Origin: Emticicia oligotrophica DSM 17448 | Lineage (GTDB): Bacteria > Bacteroidota > Bacteroidia > Cytophagales > Spirosomataceae | Direction: 5' to 3' | DNA length: 64,000 nt | Assembly: GCF_000263195.1 (NCBI RefSeq) | Contig: NC_018748.1 | Location: 1,240,001-1,304,000, forward strand | Shown: piece after piece, positions 343 through 49,744 of the stretch | Layout: every line of letters starts with the position of its first letter | How positions within the stretch are numbered: position 1 is the first letter of the stretch | Position numbers and translations under genes: made by a program | The notes under the pieces: model-generated | Databases searched by the model: none | Seen by the model: the letters and a program-made list of their open reading frames with translations, nothing else | What the model was told of the DNA's origin: nothing

Positions 343-3120
343 CTAATGATTATGATTTTCCATAGCGGGCATAGGATTAGCCCCACCTAATCTTCGCTTC
401 ATATACTCAGCAATTTTCGGAAGCTTAGCTTTTTCAGCCATTTGTATGGCTCTTTTTGCATCTACATCGGCCAAAGGTTCGGCGGCATACCAGACCATTA
501 GGGGTAAATTATGGTCATTGGCATCTTCCTCTTTTTGCACCAATGCTTCAACCACACTCCAACGTTTACTTGGTTCAGTTCGTTGCATTGCCGATGCTAA
601 ATACAAACGCACCAATGCCGAATTATCAGATTTAGCCATCTTAGCCATTTGCGTAAGAGCTTCTTCAGAAAGTGACTTATTTTCTGCCAATAACTGAATA
701 GCCCAACTTCTGAGATACTCACTTTGGTTGGCTAAAAGTGTTATTAACTCTTGCTCTGAAAGACCGTTAGTCACGTGCAAAGTCCATAAAGCTCTTAGTT
801 TACGCGTTACGTCTGGGTTTGTATTTAAAATTACTTTAAGAGCATCATGCACTTGCTTATTTCCACCTCTTTCTTGCAAAATTGTTCGAGCCTGCCGCAC
901 ATACCATTCATTGGCATGAAGCTGATAATTAACTAATTCTAAATCAGTGGCTTTTCTTAAATCGACTTGTGTCCATTTATCAGTTTCATAGCTAATTTTA
1001 AAAATCCTACCCATTGTTTTATCGTGAACATCTGGGTTTGGACTATGACATTGATTTTTATCGTACCAGTCGATGGCATAAACCGAACCACTTGGGTCAT
1101 ATTTAAAATTCAGCCATTGCGACCAACTATCATTCATAGCCATAAAATCTTTTTTATGCTTACCTACGTAGCCCGAACCTTCACGCGTGAGTTGGTCAAT
1201 GTTCAGTTTAGCACCATTGATATTATTCATGAAGATATTGTTATGAAACTCCTTTGGCCAATTACTTCCACCTAAATAAATCATTGCTCCAGCGTGAGCG
1301 TGTCCGCCCCCTGCAGCACCCGAACGAAAATTTCCTGCATGTGGGCCACGGTCTCCCAGCCAGTGTACATGGTCGGCAATGGTTTTAATATCATCGTAGA
1401 TATATGGATTGAAATGTTTGCCCGCCTGACGAAAATAACGCCCTCCTTGAATGATGTGGTACAAATGCGGAATCACACAAGCAGTAATGAATGGGTGTCC
1501 ATAATCATTGAAATCAAGCCCCCATGGATTACTCGAACCTTCAGCAAAAACCTCGAAAGTATGTTTGGTTGGGTGAAAACGCCAAACCCCAGCATTTATT
1601 TTGGTTCTTTGGTCATCTGGAGTACCCGGTTTACCCACTTTTGAGTGTGTAAATACGCCATGTGTGCCATACAACCAACCATCTGGCCCCCAGCGTAAGC
1701 TATTGAGTGTTTCGTGGGTATCTTGTGTACCCCAGCCATCCAATAGTTTTTGTGGTTCACCTGTTGGGGTATCGGTACTAAAATCAGTTGGAATAAATAA
1801 TAAATATGGGGCAGCTCCTAACCAAACACCTCCCATGCCTACTTCTATTCCACTTACTAAATTCAGGCCTTCTTTAAAAACCTTTCTACTATCTAAAGTT
1901 CCATCACCATTCGTATCTTCAAAAATCAGAATTCTATCTCGACCTTGTCCTTCGGGTGCTGGTACTGGATAGGTGTGTCCTTCCACTACCCAAAGACGTC
2001 CTTTCCAATCAATCGTGAAACAAATTGGGCGAACAACTTCTGGCTCGGCAGCCGCCAAGGTTATCTTAAAACCTTTAGGGGGAGTCATGGCCTTGGCTGC
2101 TTCAATACCCGAAAGTCCAGCATTCAGTACAGGGTCAAGTGGTGGTAAAACAATGATGTCTTTTTTAAATAATTCATTCGAAAATTCTGGTCGAGAAGGA
2201 TAAAAAAGGAAGTTATCGAAGTTGATATGAGCAAATTTTTCATCTGGAATGTAAGGAATCTGCGAGATACCCGTTTCTTTATCAATGATTCGGATAAAGA
2301 TATTTTTATTCAAAAAAGCCTTCAAATCAACAACTATTGGTTGAAGATTTGCTCTCCCCTGTCCGCTCGTTTGGAAAATAACCTTTTTTGTATCGGCCAA
2401 TACGATTTCAACGCGAGTATCTTGTAAAGCTCCACCAGAAACCATAAATGAAGCAAATGGATGAGTGATTTTAAAAGGAACTGAAGTAAGTGTACCAGTA
2501 AGTTTATAATTTACAGTTCCACCACTACTCAAGAAATACTTGCCCTCGGGACCAATAGTCATATCTTTGGCATGTACTGGCGAAGGGTCTGCTCCAATAA
2601 CGGGGTTCGCAAATGAATCTCCTGTTGCTGTCCAATCTTGTAAAGAACCCGTTTCAAAATTCAAATTTAGCGGTTTCCCATTTTTGGTTGGAATCACGCC
2701 TACTACTTGTTTTTCTATGATATCACCTTCATGCACTTCTAATTTTCCAAGCATACCCGCTGCACGGTGCCCCGGCACAGTACAATAGTAAGTATCATTT
2801 TTATCAGCCACGAAAGTTATGCTTGCTTTTGAGCCTTTTTCAGAAACTGCACTACTCTTGATACCCATTTTTTCTAAAGCAATATCATGGGTCATTACCT
2901 CGCCATTGACAATGTTTATCCTTACTCTGCTACCTTTTTTTACTTTTAAAGTTGGGTTTCTCGTACCATTCTTCGCAAAATAGCCCAACATTGTTGTTTC
3001 GAGTGTAAATTCTTTATCAATTTTACTTGTGTCTTGTGTAGTTTGTGGTGAAAGTGCCTTTACTTTCGGGCATAGAAATACTCCTACGAGTAAAAGAAAA
3101 AGTAAACGTGTTTTGTACAT
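343..3120 (-). CDS. Cupredoxin-fused PVC-type membrane-bound dehydrogenase
   Basis: Predicted secreted or periplasmic 925-residue protein. Residues 1-22 look like a signal peptide. Residues about 38-132 form a plastocyanin/azurin-like domain with a full type 1 copper set: His78, Cys113, His118 and Met123 (motif CTVPGHRAAGM). Residues about 150-310 resemble a beta-sandwich. Residues about 345-740 match the PVC-type membrane-bound dehydrogenase (sorbosone-dehydrogenase-like beta-propeller) family, with calcium-loop-like DTNGDGTLD. The remainder is helical, HEAT-like. Many relatives carry a C-terminal cytochrome c, but no CxxCH is visible, so the copper domain may take the electron-acceptor role; that is inference. 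The DUF1080 gene just upstream fits a shared role in oxidised-sugar breakdown. Substrate unknown. Confidence 0.85.
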   Translation of the reverse strand: MYKTRLLFLLLVGVFLCPKVKALSPQTTQDTSKIDKEFTLETTMLGYFAKNGTRNPTLKVKKGSRVRINIVNGEVMTHDIALEKMGIKSSAVSEKGSKASITFVADKNDTYYCTVPGHRAAGMLGKLEVHEGDIIEKQVVGVIPTKNGKPLNLNFETGSLQDWTATGDSFANPVIGADPSPVHAKDMTIGPEGKYFLSSGGTVNYKLTGTLTSVPFKITHPFASFMVSGGALQDTRVEIVLADTKKVIFQTSGQGRANLQPIVVDLKAFLNKNIFIRIIDKETGISQIPYIPDEKFAHINFDNFLFYPSRPEFSNELFKKDIIVLPPLDPVLNAGLSGIEAAKAMTPPKGFKITLAAAEPEVVRPICFTIDWKGRLWVVEGHTYPVPAPEGQGRDRILIFEDTNGDGTLDSRKVFKEGLNLVSGIEVGMGGVWLGAAPYLLFIPTDFSTDTPTGEPQKLLDGWGTQDTHETLNSLRWGPDGWLYGTHGVFTHSKVGKPGTPDDQRTKINAGVWRFHPTKHTFEVFAEGSSNPWGLDFNDYGHPFITACVIPHLYHIIQGGRYFRQAGKHFNPYIYDDIKTIADHVHWLGDRGPHAGNFRSGAAGGGHAHAGAMIYLGGSNWPKEFHNNIFMNNINGAKLNIDQLTREGSGYVGKHKKDFMAMNDSWSQWLNFKYDPSGSVYAIDWYDKNQCHSPNPDVHDKTMGRIFKISYETDKWTQVDLRKATDLELVNYQLHANEWYVRQARTILQERGGNKQVHDALKVILNTNPDVTRKLRALWTLHVTNGLSEQELITLLANQSEYLRSWAIQLLAENKSLSEEALTQMAKMAKSDNSALVRLYLASAMQRTEPSKRWSVVEALVQKEEDANDHNLPLMVWYAAEPLADVDAKRAIQMAEKAKLPKIAEYMKRRLGGANPMPAMENHNH

Positions 3121-45330: not shown

Positions 45331-47745
45331 ATGACAAACCTACTTGCCTCAGTTGCCTCTACCGATGTTCTTTTAACGAAAGAAGAAGTACTCAATGATT
45401 ATAGAATAGCTTGTGAAAGCCGTGAAGTAAGTTACATTGGCCGACAGGACGTTTTCAGGGGTAGAGCCAAATTTGGTGTCTTTGGAGATGGAAAAGAATT
45501 GGCTCAAATTGCTATGTCGAAAGTTTTTCGTATGGGTGATTTCCGCTCGGGATATTACCGTGACCAAACATTTTTGGCCGCTGTTGGTGGGCTTACTTGG
45601 CAACAGTTTTTTGCTCAATTATACGCACACACTGATACTGCCCACGACCCATTTACAGGTGGCCGCTCAATGAACGCCCACTACGGCAATAAATTATTGG
45701 ATGAAAAAGGCGAATGGCTAGACCAAACCCAGATGTATAATACCATTTGCGATGTTTCGTCAACGGCGGGCCAAATGCCACGTGCGATTGGATTGGCCTA
45801 TGCTTCAAAATTGTTTAGAGAGAATCCTGCTTTACACCAATTTACAAAATTTTCGAAAAAAGGAAATGAAGTATGTTTTACCACCATTGGTGATGCCTCT
45901 ACTTCACAAGGTATGTTTTTCGAATCTATCAATGCGGCTGGTGTCTTGCAAATTCCCATCATATTTTCGGTTTGGGACGATGGCTATGGTATCTCTGTTC
46001 CGATAAAATATCAAACCACCAAATCGAGTATTTCGGAAGCTTTGGCGGGTTTCCAACGCAAAGAAAATTCTAATGGCATTGAAATAATTGTTGCTCGTGC
46101 ATGGAATTATGTAGAGCTAATTGATGCCTACCAAAAAGCAGCCCTTTATGCCCGCGACCAACACGTGCCTGTACTCGTACACGTAGTTGAAGTAACTCAA
46201 CCACAAGGACACTCTACATCTGGTTCGCATGAGCGTTACAAATCAAAAGAACGTTTAAAATTTGAACAAGAATTTGATTGTAATACACTTTTCAAAAAAT
46301 GGATTTTGGAAAATGGATACGCCACAACAGAAGAAATCAGCGAAATAGAAGCCAATGCCAAAGATGTAGCAAAAAAATCACGCAATGCTGCTTGGAGTGC
46401 CTACCGTGACTCACTAAAGCCAGAGTATGACTCAGCCTTAGCGATACTCAAAAAAGCAACCACCGAAAGCAAAAATGCCAAGGCTATTTCGAACATAAGA
46501 GAGGGGCTCGAAAAAACTGAAAATGCAGCCAGACGCGATGTAATCGCTGCTGTAAAAAAAGCCATCAGAACCATGCGTTTTGAAGAGAATACGGCAAAAA
46601 AAGAACTAAGCAAATGGCTCAATGATGTAGCTCCCGAAAACTACAAACGTTTTAATTCTCATTTGCTGAGTGAGTTCCCATCTTCACCAATGTTTGTCAA
46701 ATCAGTAGCACCTCAATATACTGAAGAAAGTCAATTTGTTGATGGTCGTGAAATTATCAATACCTATTTCGATAAATTATTAGAGCGAGACCCACGAGTA
46801 TTTGCCATTGGAGAAGATGTTGGAAAAATCGGCGATGTAAATCAAGGTTTTGCGGGGCTTCAAGAAAAATACGGAGAAATTAGAGTTACCGATGCCGGGA
46901 TTCGTGAAACAACCATTATTGGGCAAGGCATTGGAGCCGCGATGCGTGGCTTACGTCCGATTGTAGAGATTCAATACTTCGATTATATTTATTACGCCTT
47001 AGCAACCTTAACCGACGATTTAGCCTCGCTACGCTACCGTACGGTTGGACAACAGAAGGCACCACTCATAGTTCGTACACGTGGCCACCGTCTTGAAGGA
47101 ATTTGGCACTCAGGTTCACCAATGTCAGCCATGTTAGGTTCTTTGCGTGGTATGCATGTGTTAGTGCCAAGAAATTTCGTACAAGCCGCAGGTTTTTATA
47201 ATACAATTCTTAAAGGCGATGACCCCGCTCTTATTATTGAATGTTTGAATGGCTATCGAATAAAAGAAAAGTTACCGACTAACCTCGATGAAATTTGTCT
47301 GCCTTTAGGCGTTCCCGAAGTTTTAAAACAAGGTACTGACCTCACAATCGTTACATATGGTTCGATGTGCAGAATTGTCATGGAAGCAGCCCAGCAGTTA
47401 GAAGAGGTTGGAATTAATGTAGAAGTGATAGATGTACAATCGCTATTACCTTTTGATGTGCATCATTCAATTACTGAGTCTATCAAAAAAACCAATCGTG
47501 TCATCTTTGCCGACGAAGATGTTCCGGGGGGAGCATCAGCATTTATGATGCAAGAAGTGGTTGATAAACAGGGAGCCTATCGCTGGTTAGACTCTGCTCC
47601 TAAAGCAGTTTCGGCACAAGCCCATAGACCAGCGTATGCATCTGATGGTGATTATTTTTCAAAGCCAAATGCTGAAACCATCTTCGATGCTGCCTACGAA
47701 ATCATGCACGAAGCCAAGCCAACATTATTCCCGAAACTATATTAA
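45331..47745 (+). CDS. Branched-chain 2-oxoacid dehydrogenase E1, alpha-beta fusion
   Basis: 804 residues. The E1-alpha half (about 1-400) has the thiamine-diphosphate site GDASTSQGMFFESINAAG followed by VWDDGYGISVP, where the usual GDG...NN is GDA...DD as in this fused branch. The E1-beta half (about 465-804) has EDVGKIGDVNQGF, VTDAGIRETTIIGQGIGAA and FADEDVPGGASAFM. Between the halves is a helical linker rich in Lys, Ala and Glu (about 370-455). The enzyme decarboxylates branched-chain 2-oxoacids from Val, Leu and Ile breakdown; E2 and E3 are not in the window. Terminator at 47766-47813. Confidence 0.92.
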   Translation: MTNLLASVASTDVLLTKEEVLNDYRIACESREVSYIGRQDVFRGRAKFGVFGDGKELAQIAMSKVFRMGDFRSGYYRDQTFLAAVGGLTWQQFFAQLYAHTDTAHDPFTGGRSMNAHYGNKLLDEKGEWLDQTQMYNTICDVSSTAGQMPRAIGLAYASKLFRENPALHQFTKFSKKGNEVCFTTIGDASTSQGMFFESINAAGVLQIPIIFSVWDDGYGISVPIKYQTTKSSISEALAGFQRKENSNGIEIIVARAWNYVELIDAYQKAALYARDQHVPVLVHVVEVTQPQGHSTSGSHERYKSKERLKFEQEFDCNTLFKKWILENGYATTEEISEIEANAKDVAKKSRNAAWSAYRDSLKPEYDSALAILKKATTESKNAKAISNIREGLEKTENAARRDVIAAVKKAIRTMRFEENTAKKELSKWLNDVAPENYKRFNSHLLSEFPSSPMFVKSVAPQYTEESQFVDGREIINTYFDKLLERDPRVFAIGEDVGKIGDVNQGFAGLQEKYGEIRVTDAGIRETTIIGQGIGAAMRGLRPIVEIQYFDYIYYALATLTDDLASLRYRTVGQQKAPLIVRTRGHRLEGIWHSGSPMSAMLGSLRGMHVLVPRNFVQAAGFYNTILKGDDPALIIECLNGYRIKEKLPTNLDEICLPLGVPEVLKQGTDLTIVTYGSMCRIVMEAAQQLEEVGINVEVIDVQSLLPFDVHHSITESIKKTNRVIFADEDVPGGASAFMMQEVVDKQGAYRWLDSAPKAVSAQAHRPAYASDGDYFSKPNAETIFDAAYEIMHEAKPTLFPKLY

Positions 47746-47860: not shown

Positions 47861-48455
47861 ATGCTGAATCTAGAGCACCCAATGTTACTAGGCTTACAAC
47901 AATATGCCCAATTTACACAAGAAAATCTCCAAACGGTTGCCCAATATTTTAAGCTTGAATCTTACGAAAAAGATACTATTATCTTAGATATAGGTCATGT
48001 AAACAATAAACTCTATTTTGTAGAAGAAGGGGTTTGTTTTACAAGAGTTTTCTTACCAAGAAGATGGTCTGCTTACTAATACACGCTGGCTTATACCAGA
48101 GGGTAGCTTTGCTTACTCAACTATAAGCTTTATCAATGAAGTTCCTACTCAAATGGGAATTAAAGCGATTGAGCGAGTAAAACTTTGGGCTATAACTAAG
48201 GAAAACATTCAAAATATCTACATGACAGTACCTCAAATGGAGCGAGTGAGTAGGCTCGTAATCGAACAGCACCTAATTACTTACGAAAAATTTCTATTAT
48301 TGATTAGGTATTGTAGTTCTGAAGAAAAACTAACTTGGTTTGAGGAAACTTTTCCTACACTAACCAACCGCATACCTCAGAAATACATTGCCTCATACTT
48401 AAATATTCGCCCTGAAACTCTTAGTAGAGTGCGTTCTAAAAGAGCTGAGCGTTAA
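47861..48455 (+). pseudogene. Crp/Fnr-family regulator broken by a +1 frameshift
   Basis: The first frame reads 72 residues (cNMP-binding-domain-like, KLYFVEEGVCFTRVF) and stops at 48079. The rest, in the next frame from about 48054, continues the same domain (QEDGLLTNTRWLIPEGSFAY) through the dimerisation helix to an HTH (RIPQKYIASYLNIRPETLSRV) ending at 48455. Removing one T near 48048-48054 (gttttctta) would restore an about 197-residue protein of normal family length. It is either a true pseudogene, a sequencing error or, less likely, programmed frameshifting. The absence of other lesions suggests a recent or artefactual event. Confidence 0.85.
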
Positions 48456-48482
48456 GCACTTAACAAGGCAACCTTTCATTTC

Positions 48483-48527
48483 TTGACTTATGTCAATTTT
48501 AATTTATCAAAACAATCCTCAAATTTG
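48483..48527 (+). promoter_or_regulatory. FNR-box-like palindrome and -7 element
   Basis: TTGAC-TTAT-GTCAA at 48483-48496 is a perfect inverted repeat of the Crp/Fnr operator type. CAAATTTG at 48520-48527 matches TAnnTTTG in 7 of 8. The box centre lies about 43-45 bases before the expected start, close to the position for activation. It is 28 bases after the broken Crp/Fnr gene. Confidence 0.55.
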
Positions 48528-48532
48528 TAAGG

Positions 48533-48592
48533 ACTATAAATCCATATCCTAATTACTAGCCATCGAGCCCTACTTGCTTGGTGGCTTTTTAT
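48533..48592 (+). ncRNA. Candidate small RNA under the FNR-like box
   Basis: About 60 bases from the expected start to an intrinsic terminator, agccatcgagc (48558-48568) and gcttggtggct (48576-48586), an 11-bp stem with two wobbles followed by ttttta. No ORF fits. Alternatively the hairpin is just the terminator of the Crp/Fnr gene. Confidence 0.4.
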
Positions 48593-48958
48593 TTTATTAA
48601 CTATTTCTATTTCTCCTGTAAAACAAAAGACGCACACCTTACAGGAATGCGTCTCTCATCGTATATATATAGATAAATTGTTAAAAAGGCAAAGGGGGCA
48701 TAAAATGTCCCCCGATGAACCCAAAACAACTTTTGCTGTGACTAAAAAAGTGAATTTCTTAGTTTAGTGTGCGATTTCTCTAAAATTTGTCGTTAAGACA
48801 ATAGTCAGAATGACTAAACAACTATACGAAACTAACAAAATACTTATAATCAGTTGTTTACATAAAATATTATTCAAAAAAAAACTTAACTAATTCTCTT
48901 TTATTTAGTTTTAGAATAAAGCCTAATAACAATTTCCTAACTTATTGATATTCAAAAA
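48593..48958. other. Non-coding stretch with overlapping hairpins
   Basis: Contains two interleaved inverted repeats at 48614-48654 (tcctgtaa/ttacagga and agacgca/tgcgtct) that cannot both form fully, and a ggggg/ccccc hairpin at about 48694-48713. Otherwise AT-rich, no ORF. Confidence 0.5.
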
Positions 48959-49744
48959 TTATAGAACACCAACCATTCTACATATTTGTATCAATGCAGT
49001 TGTATCTCTCGTACCCGTACGGGCAAGCATATTTCTACGATGATTATCTACTGTATTTGGGCTAATTTTCATTTCGGTTGCAATGTGTTTAGTATCTAAA
49101 CCTTGTGCAATGTATTGAAGCACTTCTCGCTCTCGCTCCGAAACAATATCATGTTCTAATGTTCTTTTTTCTCCTGAATAGTAAACAAAAACTTTTTTTT
49201 CTTGCATACCAAATGAACCTCTAATACAATATTCATCTCCTTTTACCAAATGTGTTACATCTTGAATAGAAAGAATAACCACCGTTGGATATTTCTCTAC
49301 ATTAAATTCAACTGGAATTATATTGATATACCAACGCATGAGACGGTTCTCTTTATCACGCAGTTTCATTCCCCATGCACTGATGAATTGCCGAGTTTTA
49401 TATACAAAATCTAAGTTTTTTTCAATATTCAATACCCAATTTATAATTGTGCTCATGAATAAATGATGCTCTTTCTCAAACATTGTCAGAAACTTCATAA
49501 GAATACCCTCTGAGAATTCTTCTTCACTGTAACCTGTGTACTTCAATATGTTTCCGCTTGCTTGAACTACCCTTAAGTGTCTGACATCTATTAAAAAAGA
49601 GAGATTCCCTTGTTGGTTATTCAACAAGTTGATAAGCCCTGACTTTTCAAGATACTTTTTATCATCTATCTTTACATCATCAGGATAAAATCGCTCTATG
49701 GTTTCGTAGAGTTTTCTTAAAATATTTTCTATTTCCCTATGCAC
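48959..49744 (-). CDS. LuxR-family regulator with PAS-like sensor
   Basis: 261 residues. Residues about 45-165 form a PAS-like domain (FLIDVRHLRVVQASGNILKYTGYSEEEF). Residues about 195-258 form a LuxR-type HTH (IVSEREREVLQYIAQGLDTKHIATEMKIS, then NTVDNHRRNML). No receiver domain. It is likely a one-component transcriptional activator. Stand-alone, convergent with the broken Crp/Fnr gene. Confidence 0.9.
   Translation of the reverse strand: MHREIENILRKLYETIERFYPDDVKIDDKKYLEKSGLINLLNNQQGNLSFLIDVRHLRVVQASGNILKYTGYSEEEFSEGILMKFLTMFEKEHHLFMSTIINWVLNIEKNLDFVYKTRQFISAWGMKLRDKENRLMRWYINIIPVEFNVEKYPTVVILSIQDVTHLVKGDEYCIRGSFGMQEKKVFVYYSGEKRTLEHDIVSEREREVLQYIAQGLDTKHIATEMKISPNTVDNHRRNMLARTGTRDTTALIQICRMVGVL

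Follow-up and report, generated by a model that had tools for sequence, protein, structure and literature searches.

A conserved FNR-type box, putative promoter and terminator behind a Crp/Fnr-family gene in Emticicia, a predicted regulator-linked small-RNA gene

In a 64-kb stretch of the 5.22-Mb genome of the freshwater bacterium Emticicia oligotrophica (the window), an FNR-type box, a TTTG-type promoter element and an intrinsic terminator lie behind a gene of the Crp/Fnr family. Comparison among Emticicia genomes shows that these elements form a single unit with fixed spacing, a conserved terminator and a coupling to the regulator gene. We favor, as the likely reading overall, a regulator-linked small-RNA gene, in which the box would be the operator of the adjacent Crp/Fnr protein and the product a discrete small RNA. 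That the box and promoter serve the adjacent regulator is predicted with high confidence, and that the box promoter yields a discrete small RNA is, in our estimate, probable. The features of the locus, in window coordinates, are as follows.

45331-47745: fused E1 dehydrogenase gene, upstream of the Crp/Fnr gene
47861-48455, plus strand: Crp/Fnr-family regulator gene, frameshifted here and intact in four relatives
48483-48496, plus strand: FNR-type box TTGACTTATGTCAA, predicted operator of the adjoining regulator, conserved in four relatives
48520-48527, plus strand: -7-like element CAAATTTG, its TTTG ending 31 nt past the box, with gap-free spacing in 5/5 genomes
48532-48592, plus strand: predicted short noncoding RNA of about 60 nt, its start placed from the published TAnnTTTG position of -12 to -5
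48540-48544, plus strand: start of the conserved, unpaired 5' segment, ATAAATCCACAC in relatives and ATAAATCCATAT here, from the alignment
48558-48586, plus strand: intrinsic terminator stem-loop of 11 pairs with tail TTTTTATTTTA, T-rich to about 48597
48959-49744, opposite strand: PAS-LuxR gene, downstream of the predicted RNA

A conserved unit coupled to the regulator gene

A sequence-only reading of this DNA had proposed a perfect TTGAC-N4-GTCAA box, a -7 element 23 bases later and a strong terminator, all next to a Crp/Fnr gene. The box is exact and is the sole perfect match in the window, compared with a mean of 0.06 in shuffled sequence (5 of 100 shuffles held at least one); with one mismatch allowed, three matches against 2.37 expected represent no excess. 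The -7 element begins at the proposed distance and contains TTTG, but its first base is C rather than T. The terminator is present as described, its hairpin being the sole fold of the predicted RNA (fold z-score of -4.07 from position 48532). The Crp/Fnr gene is likewise present, but frameshifted in E. oligotrophica.

Of 11 genomes searched, 6 proved to have orthologous DNA, E. oligotrophica being one of them. Four other Emticicia genomes (G003, G004, G008, and G010) carry the box, the 31-nt spacing, TTTG, and the terminator behind an intact Crp/Fnr gene, so that the elements of the earlier reading stand as one conserved unit. In all five aligned genomes the box reads TTGAY-N4-GTCAA, no gap falls between box and TTTG, the distance from box start to TTTG end is 45 nt, and the stem has 11 pairs; two relatives have TTGAC/GTCAA, and two have TTGAT in one half-site. 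The distance from regulator stop to box varies (27, 59, 20, 27, and 20 nt). Mean pairwise identity across the five genomes is 0.88 in the box, 0.78 from box end to TTTG, 0.57 in the 5' part of the RNA, and 0.74 in the stem-loop, with 0.38 from stop to box and 0.40 past the terminator.

Within the aligned stem, 98.2% of cells pair and three pairs are changed on both sides, while sliding the partner by 1-3 columns as a control gave 24-51% pairing. Drawn from five related sequences only, these compensatory changes are supportive rather than strong evidence. G004 and G010 have a short T tract (TTTCATTT).

These comparisons bear on two other explanations. A perfect box is expected somewhere in 64 kb with a chance of about 6% (mean of 0.06), which would allow a chance palindrome beside an ordinary terminator; the retention of the box at a fixed spacing in four further species contradicts this, and the helix-box match and the 30/31-nt rule described below also speak against it, making coincidence highly improbable. 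Alternatively, the regulator mRNA could simply end at the hairpin, with the box as a binding site in its 3' region, used for example in autoregulation, and no separate RNA made. Terminator and gene do co-occur, and the stop-to-terminator distance is short enough for a 3' UTR. Such an arrangement, however, leaves unexplained both the constant 31-nt TTTG spacing and the recurrence of that spacing behind many Crp/Fnr genes with a gene next, and it sits poorly with an unconserved stop-to-box stretch; we consider it quite unlikely.

Regulator and unit are also lost together. In G009 a stop interrupts the regulator copy, the box is degraded (TTGATAAATGTGAA), and the terminator is missing, and G002 has a C-terminal regulator remnant, a damaged box (TTGATACAGGTCGA), and an unrecognisable stem. 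G001, G005, G006, and G007 have neither regulator gene nor box at the syntenic site; a search of 800 nt in these four with up to two mismatches returned no box apart from two matches, which by our own reading lie inside the dehydrogenase gene. The earlier reading had drawn attention to possible loss of the box in close relatives that keep the terminator. All four terminator-keeping relatives (4/4) keep the box too, and the two relatives with a decayed box have a decayed terminator. E. oligotrophica itself is the exception to joint loss, with the gene broken and the unit kept.

A covariance model of the unit matched 6 of 222 family genomes, all of one genus and one of them (G002) weakly; the same RNA was not found in other genera among these genomes. 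A search for the box plus an AAATCC motif matched 13/222 family genomes. The extra matches look like chance, and the one that was opened (L104) lies inside an ORF. Only L034 (G024), where the copy of the regulator is broken, has a layout that looks related to that of the unit.

Promoter geometry and spacing behind Crp/Fnr genes

Class II activators classically bind a site centered near -41.5. At the Emticicia locus, TTTG is invariant in 5/5 genomes, the first bases of the -7 element are CA in four and GA in one, not TA, and no TTTG-type -33 element was seen by eye between box and -7 in these five genomes. In the available part of a study of Flavobacterium psychrophilum, the sigma-A consensus TAnnTTTG sits at -12 to -5 (PMC9723704), which would place the start near 48532 and the box center near -42.5. 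With the TTTG end at -5 as in that source, spacings of 30 and 31 nt put the box center at -41.5 and -42.5, respectively.

Genome-wide, 19 perfect boxes occur, compared with 3 in a reversed control. A genome-wide FNR regulon was considered and rejected, because most of this excess is an intergenic repeat, TTTGACTTTAGTC...GACTAAAGTCAA(ATTTG): by sequence, 11 of the 19 boxes carry the core or the second copy of this unrelated repeat (contexts were inspected for 15 of the 19). The repeat imitates FNR boxes with a -7 element, as at L005, L006, L007, L009, L010, L012, and L014. A box followed by NANNTTTG at 17-29 nt occurs at nine places genome-wide and at four in the reversed control; by our own reading, eight of the nine are the repeat, and the 48483 locus is not.

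Loci of 24 Crp/Fnr homologs in other genomes contained seven TTGAY-N4-RTCAA boxes, against 0-2 per altered spacer. In 45 distinct loci, the region from -40 to +100 relative to the gene end contained six TTGAY/RTCAA boxes with the 4-nt spacer and none with any other spacer from 0 to 9. Over 47 distinct loci, the density of perfect 5-4-5 palindromes, whatever their sequence, was 5.3 per kb up to 60 nt past the stop, compared with 1.67 elsewhere, and those with a spacer of 6 were likewise raised (4.96 per kb).

The distance from palindrome end to TTTG end was then scored for perfect 14-bp palindromes over offsets of 15-55 nt, in loci that are best-scoring matches, a non-random sample, after 25 near-duplicate rows had been dropped. 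Set 1, made up of 63 loci of which 51 were distinct, had 14/20 palindromes at 30 or 31 nt. In set 2, comprising 40 further loci (28 distinct) fetched after the 30/31 prediction had been written down, 6/15 did so. Pooled over 78 distinct of 103 loci, 20/35 fell at 30/31 compared with 15 over the 39 other offsets. With one mismatch allowed, 42 matches stood at 30/31 against 9.5 expected per two offsets, three or four of them being the Emticicia unit itself, and 39/78 loci had such a match. Matches to the rule outside the family include L041 and L052.

Many rule promoters have a codirectional gene next, about 55-175 nt from the regulator stop. Loci of this kind raise the possibility of a remnant cassette, whose promoter once drove a regulated gene, since lost, so that the short transcript would be a functionless leader with a hairpin. 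The box-30/31-TTTG promoters followed by a codirectional gene at L045, L050, L052, L054, L158, L023, and L157 fit this idea, as do the Emticicia paralogs L150, L151, and L155, with a leader hairpin ahead of an ORF, and the breakage or loss of the regulator in several Emticicia. Yet the terminator persists, with compensatory changes, in the four genomes whose regulator is intact, scans of three relatives gave no downstream gene and no ORF of 45 aa or more on the RNA strand within about 500 nt, and a dead leader would not be expected to retain box spacing and stem. The first codirectional ORF to reach 45 aa is at 599 nt in G004, none is listed within 700 nt in G003 or G010, and the gene downstream of the RNA (LuxR) points the opposite way. 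A remnant therefore seems unlikely, if still worth weighing, and we retain the regulator-linked small-RNA gene as the preferred reading.

Two rule loci resemble the Emticicia unit in plan. L046 (G016) has tandem TTAGTT boxes 22 nt apart, TACCTTTG, and a 12-bp hairpin running into T6, with the next gene at 343 nt. L141 (G242) has a TTGCT box, TAACTTTG, two strong hairpins, and then a convergent gene. Scans of L046 and L034 for consensus terminators returned none; folding of both gave hairpins ahead of T runs. Given L046, L141, and the hairpins of the Emticicia paralogs, predicted short structured transcripts at rule promoters are not unique to the 48483 locus. Multi-species conservation of such a unit is shown only there.

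Two further patterns were observed behind Crp/Fnr genes. Seven paralog loci of Emticicia relatives (L148-L153 and L155), with boxes as varied as TTGCN6GCAA and GTAGN6CTAC, have a common leader hairpin distinct from that of the unit, AAGCCCCCGAT...GGGGGCTT, followed where the contig allows (L150, L151, L155) by short exported or lipoprotein-like ORFs. At L046, L149, L166, and L168, two boxes lie 22 nt apart, about two helical turns, suggesting two bound dimers.

The regulator and its recognition helix

In E. oligotrophica the regulator gene consists of a 72-aa ORF (47861-48079) and, in another frame up to 48455, a 100-aa ORF, split by what the alignment indicates is a short insertion relative to the relatives, whose intact copies (G003, G004, G008, and G010) encode 195-197 aa. 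The remaining protein is 78-81% identical to these copies and has no further stop in frame, which points to a recent break or a sequence error. With its regulator frameshifted, the unit may depend on a paralog instead, or its own decay may have begun. One of the five paralogs examined in the genome has LETLSR, the same helix class as the broken regulator, and could thus stand in for it.

The protein combines the cNMP-binding-like domain and C-terminal HTH of the Crp/Fnr superfamily. The cNMP_binding family PF00027 scores above cut-off in two intact orthologs, and PDB 3dn7 matches over residues 10-191 (E 7e-21). The HTH was recognised by its residues, the Pfam HTH_Crp_2 match being sub-threshold and confined to the C-terminal piece in the window. 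The sequence-only reading had also drawn a parallel with oxygen-responsive small RNAs, and an oxygen response is not supported. The four intact orthologs contain no cysteine, so the four-cysteine [4Fe-4S] cluster of FNR is impossible in them; an oxygen-responsive FNR was accordingly rejected for the adjacent regulator, and the signal of this protein is not the FNR iron-sulphur cluster.

The recognition helix, RPETLSRVR in the window and in the orthologs, has the Glu, Ser, and Arg of FNR, where, in the available part of the source, Glu209, Ser212, and Arg213 contact TTGAT (PMC4505428). It therefore matches the TTGAC/GTCAA box at the 48483 locus. Across loci, E[TH]LSR helices go with TGA/TCA half-sites in 15/16 cases, the miss being the decayed G009, and other helices in 1/23 (Fisher p ~1e-8, on rows that are not phylogenetically independent). 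Among the other pairs are FTLSR with TTGCT, PQSLSR with TTCAC, and VTLSK with (G/T)TAGT. The accessible text of PMC1274295 describes a correlation of residue 181 with the site, E going with the A of TTGA and serine or glutamine with other boxes, and our correlation agrees with this pattern and with the FNR contacts in the part of PMC4505428 available.

In set 1, TTGAY boxes sorted perfectly with E181, a claim we dropped after set 2 yielded exceptions: L161 and L166 have TTGAY boxes despite A or S at the residue 181 position. The helix-box relation is for this reason described as a strong correlation and no more. In addition, no box stands at the rule spacing in 16 distinct E[TH]LSR loci. Together, the wider box spacing and the helix-box pattern make it most likely that TTGACTTATGTCAA is a class II operator of the neighboring regulator, predicted to drive a short noncoding RNA.

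The predicted RNA, its neighbors and its proposed role

The first 25 nt of the predicted RNA are unpaired, and here it has no start codon ahead of the hairpin. Its 5' part has the core TAAATCC, or TAAGTCC in G010; the next bases are ACAC in the four relatives and ATAT here. The CACAC core of the segment is lost in E. oligotrophica, and the identity of the segment is moderate (0.57). Rfam gave no gathering-level match in the window, and no match in 48440-48960 was credible even with E values up to 5 allowed. A SAM riboswitch match of 15.2 bits (cut-off 44.4, E 1.9) was taken as chance, and plasmid records gave no match.

Other elements lie between this RNA and the PAS-LuxR gene. A second, convergent hairpin, GACGCA...TGCGTC (window 48620-48660 and relatives; AAAAAGGCACATTTG...CAAATGTGCCTTTTT in G003), separates the RNA from a minus-strand element and is likely a two-way terminator. 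The minus-strand element (48684-48815) is near-invariant (103/110 alignment columns identical across five genomes) and ends in a terminator-like GGGGGACATTTTATGCCCCC hairpin. It occupies the same site in 11/11 genus genomes searched, with extra full or partial copies in G001, G005, G007, and G009 and a single one in a different genus (G035). Rfam gave no match for it, and it is probably an unrecorded small RNA, better conserved than that at 48532-48592. A likeness is seen among the 5' parts of the RNA (48533-48550, AAATCCACACAAA in relatives), the minus-strand element (48750-48800, AAATCGCACACTAAA), and the G024 unit (AAATCCGCACACAAC, L034 about 1860-1885, reverse strand), reflecting either a shared target or chance.

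FnrS and other FNR/ANR-dependent small RNAs of proteobacteria combine a Crp/Fnr-family activator, an FNR-type box, and a short terminator-ended RNA. The Emticicia unit would be alike in all three respects, but no sequence relation was found (no Rfam match), its regulator has no cysteines, its predicted RNA gene lies directly behind the regulator gene, and its putative promoter is of the Bacteroidota TTTG type. OxyS beside oxyR and SgrS beside sgrR are small RNAs encoded next to their activators, again as neighbors of an activator gene; unlike them, the Emticicia unit is tandem and on the same strand, with its promoter in the 3' intergenic region of the regulator, which belongs to another family.

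In the available part of PMC1274295, HcpR and FNR-type sites read TTGACnnnnGTCAA, a consensus identical to that of the Emticicia box and with the same residue 181 (E) correlation. HcpR there controls hcp and redox genes, whereas the nearest site of the Emticicia regulator would drive a predicted RNA. Closer in phylum, GibS of Bacteroides thetaiotaomicron, 145 nt with an unpaired 5' seed (PMC7366714), and Rfp18 of F. psychrophilum (PMC9723704) are Bacteroidota small RNAs that, in the accessible parts of these sources, come from TAnnTTTG-type promoters, which the putative TTTG promoter of the Emticicia RNA resembles, and are longer than this RNA is predicted to be. The words Crp and Fnr do not occur in either text. 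In the open-licence literature, we found no report of a small RNA in Emticicia or of a Bacteroidetes small RNA tied to Fnr/Crp, and, by title, no FnrS-like small RNA in Bacteroidetes.

We propose that the Crp/Fnr-family protein encoded immediately upstream would bind the box as a dimer through its E-T-L-S-R helix. The box would be centered about -42 in a weak promoter, one with TTTG in its -7 element but lacking an evident -33 element, and binding would lead to class II activation of transcription; we infer activation rather than repression. The product would be a noncoding RNA of about 60 nt, made up of a short unpaired 5' segment and the terminator hairpin, with no codirectional gene past it. 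The RNA may act in trans, with base-pairing of its 5' segment as the most likely means, and pairing to AUAAAUCCACAC is predicted. Base-pairing through an unpaired 5' end is the default expectation by analogy with small RNAs such as GibS, as described in the available text of PMC7366714.

More tentatively, and with appreciable doubt, the small Crp/Fnr regulators of Cytophagales may commonly form self-contained cassettes, a subset of which would drive a short hairpin RNA as one module. The plan would be a regulator gene, a cognate palindrome 0-60 nt past its stop, and a promoter TTTG 30-31 nt further on. The subset driving an RNA and no protein gene would include the Emticicia unit, with L046 of G016 and L141 of G242 as candidates, and regulator and small RNA would evolve, diversify in DNA specificity, and be lost as one module.

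If these readings are true, Emticicia would provide a Bacteroidota small RNA controlled directly by a Crp/Fnr protein and linked in cis to this regulator. The order of regulator stop, palindrome, 30-31 nt, and TTTG would then serve as a reading rule, allowing the DNA site of many uncharacterised Cytophagales Crp/Fnr proteins, and their first target, to be predicted from sequence alone.
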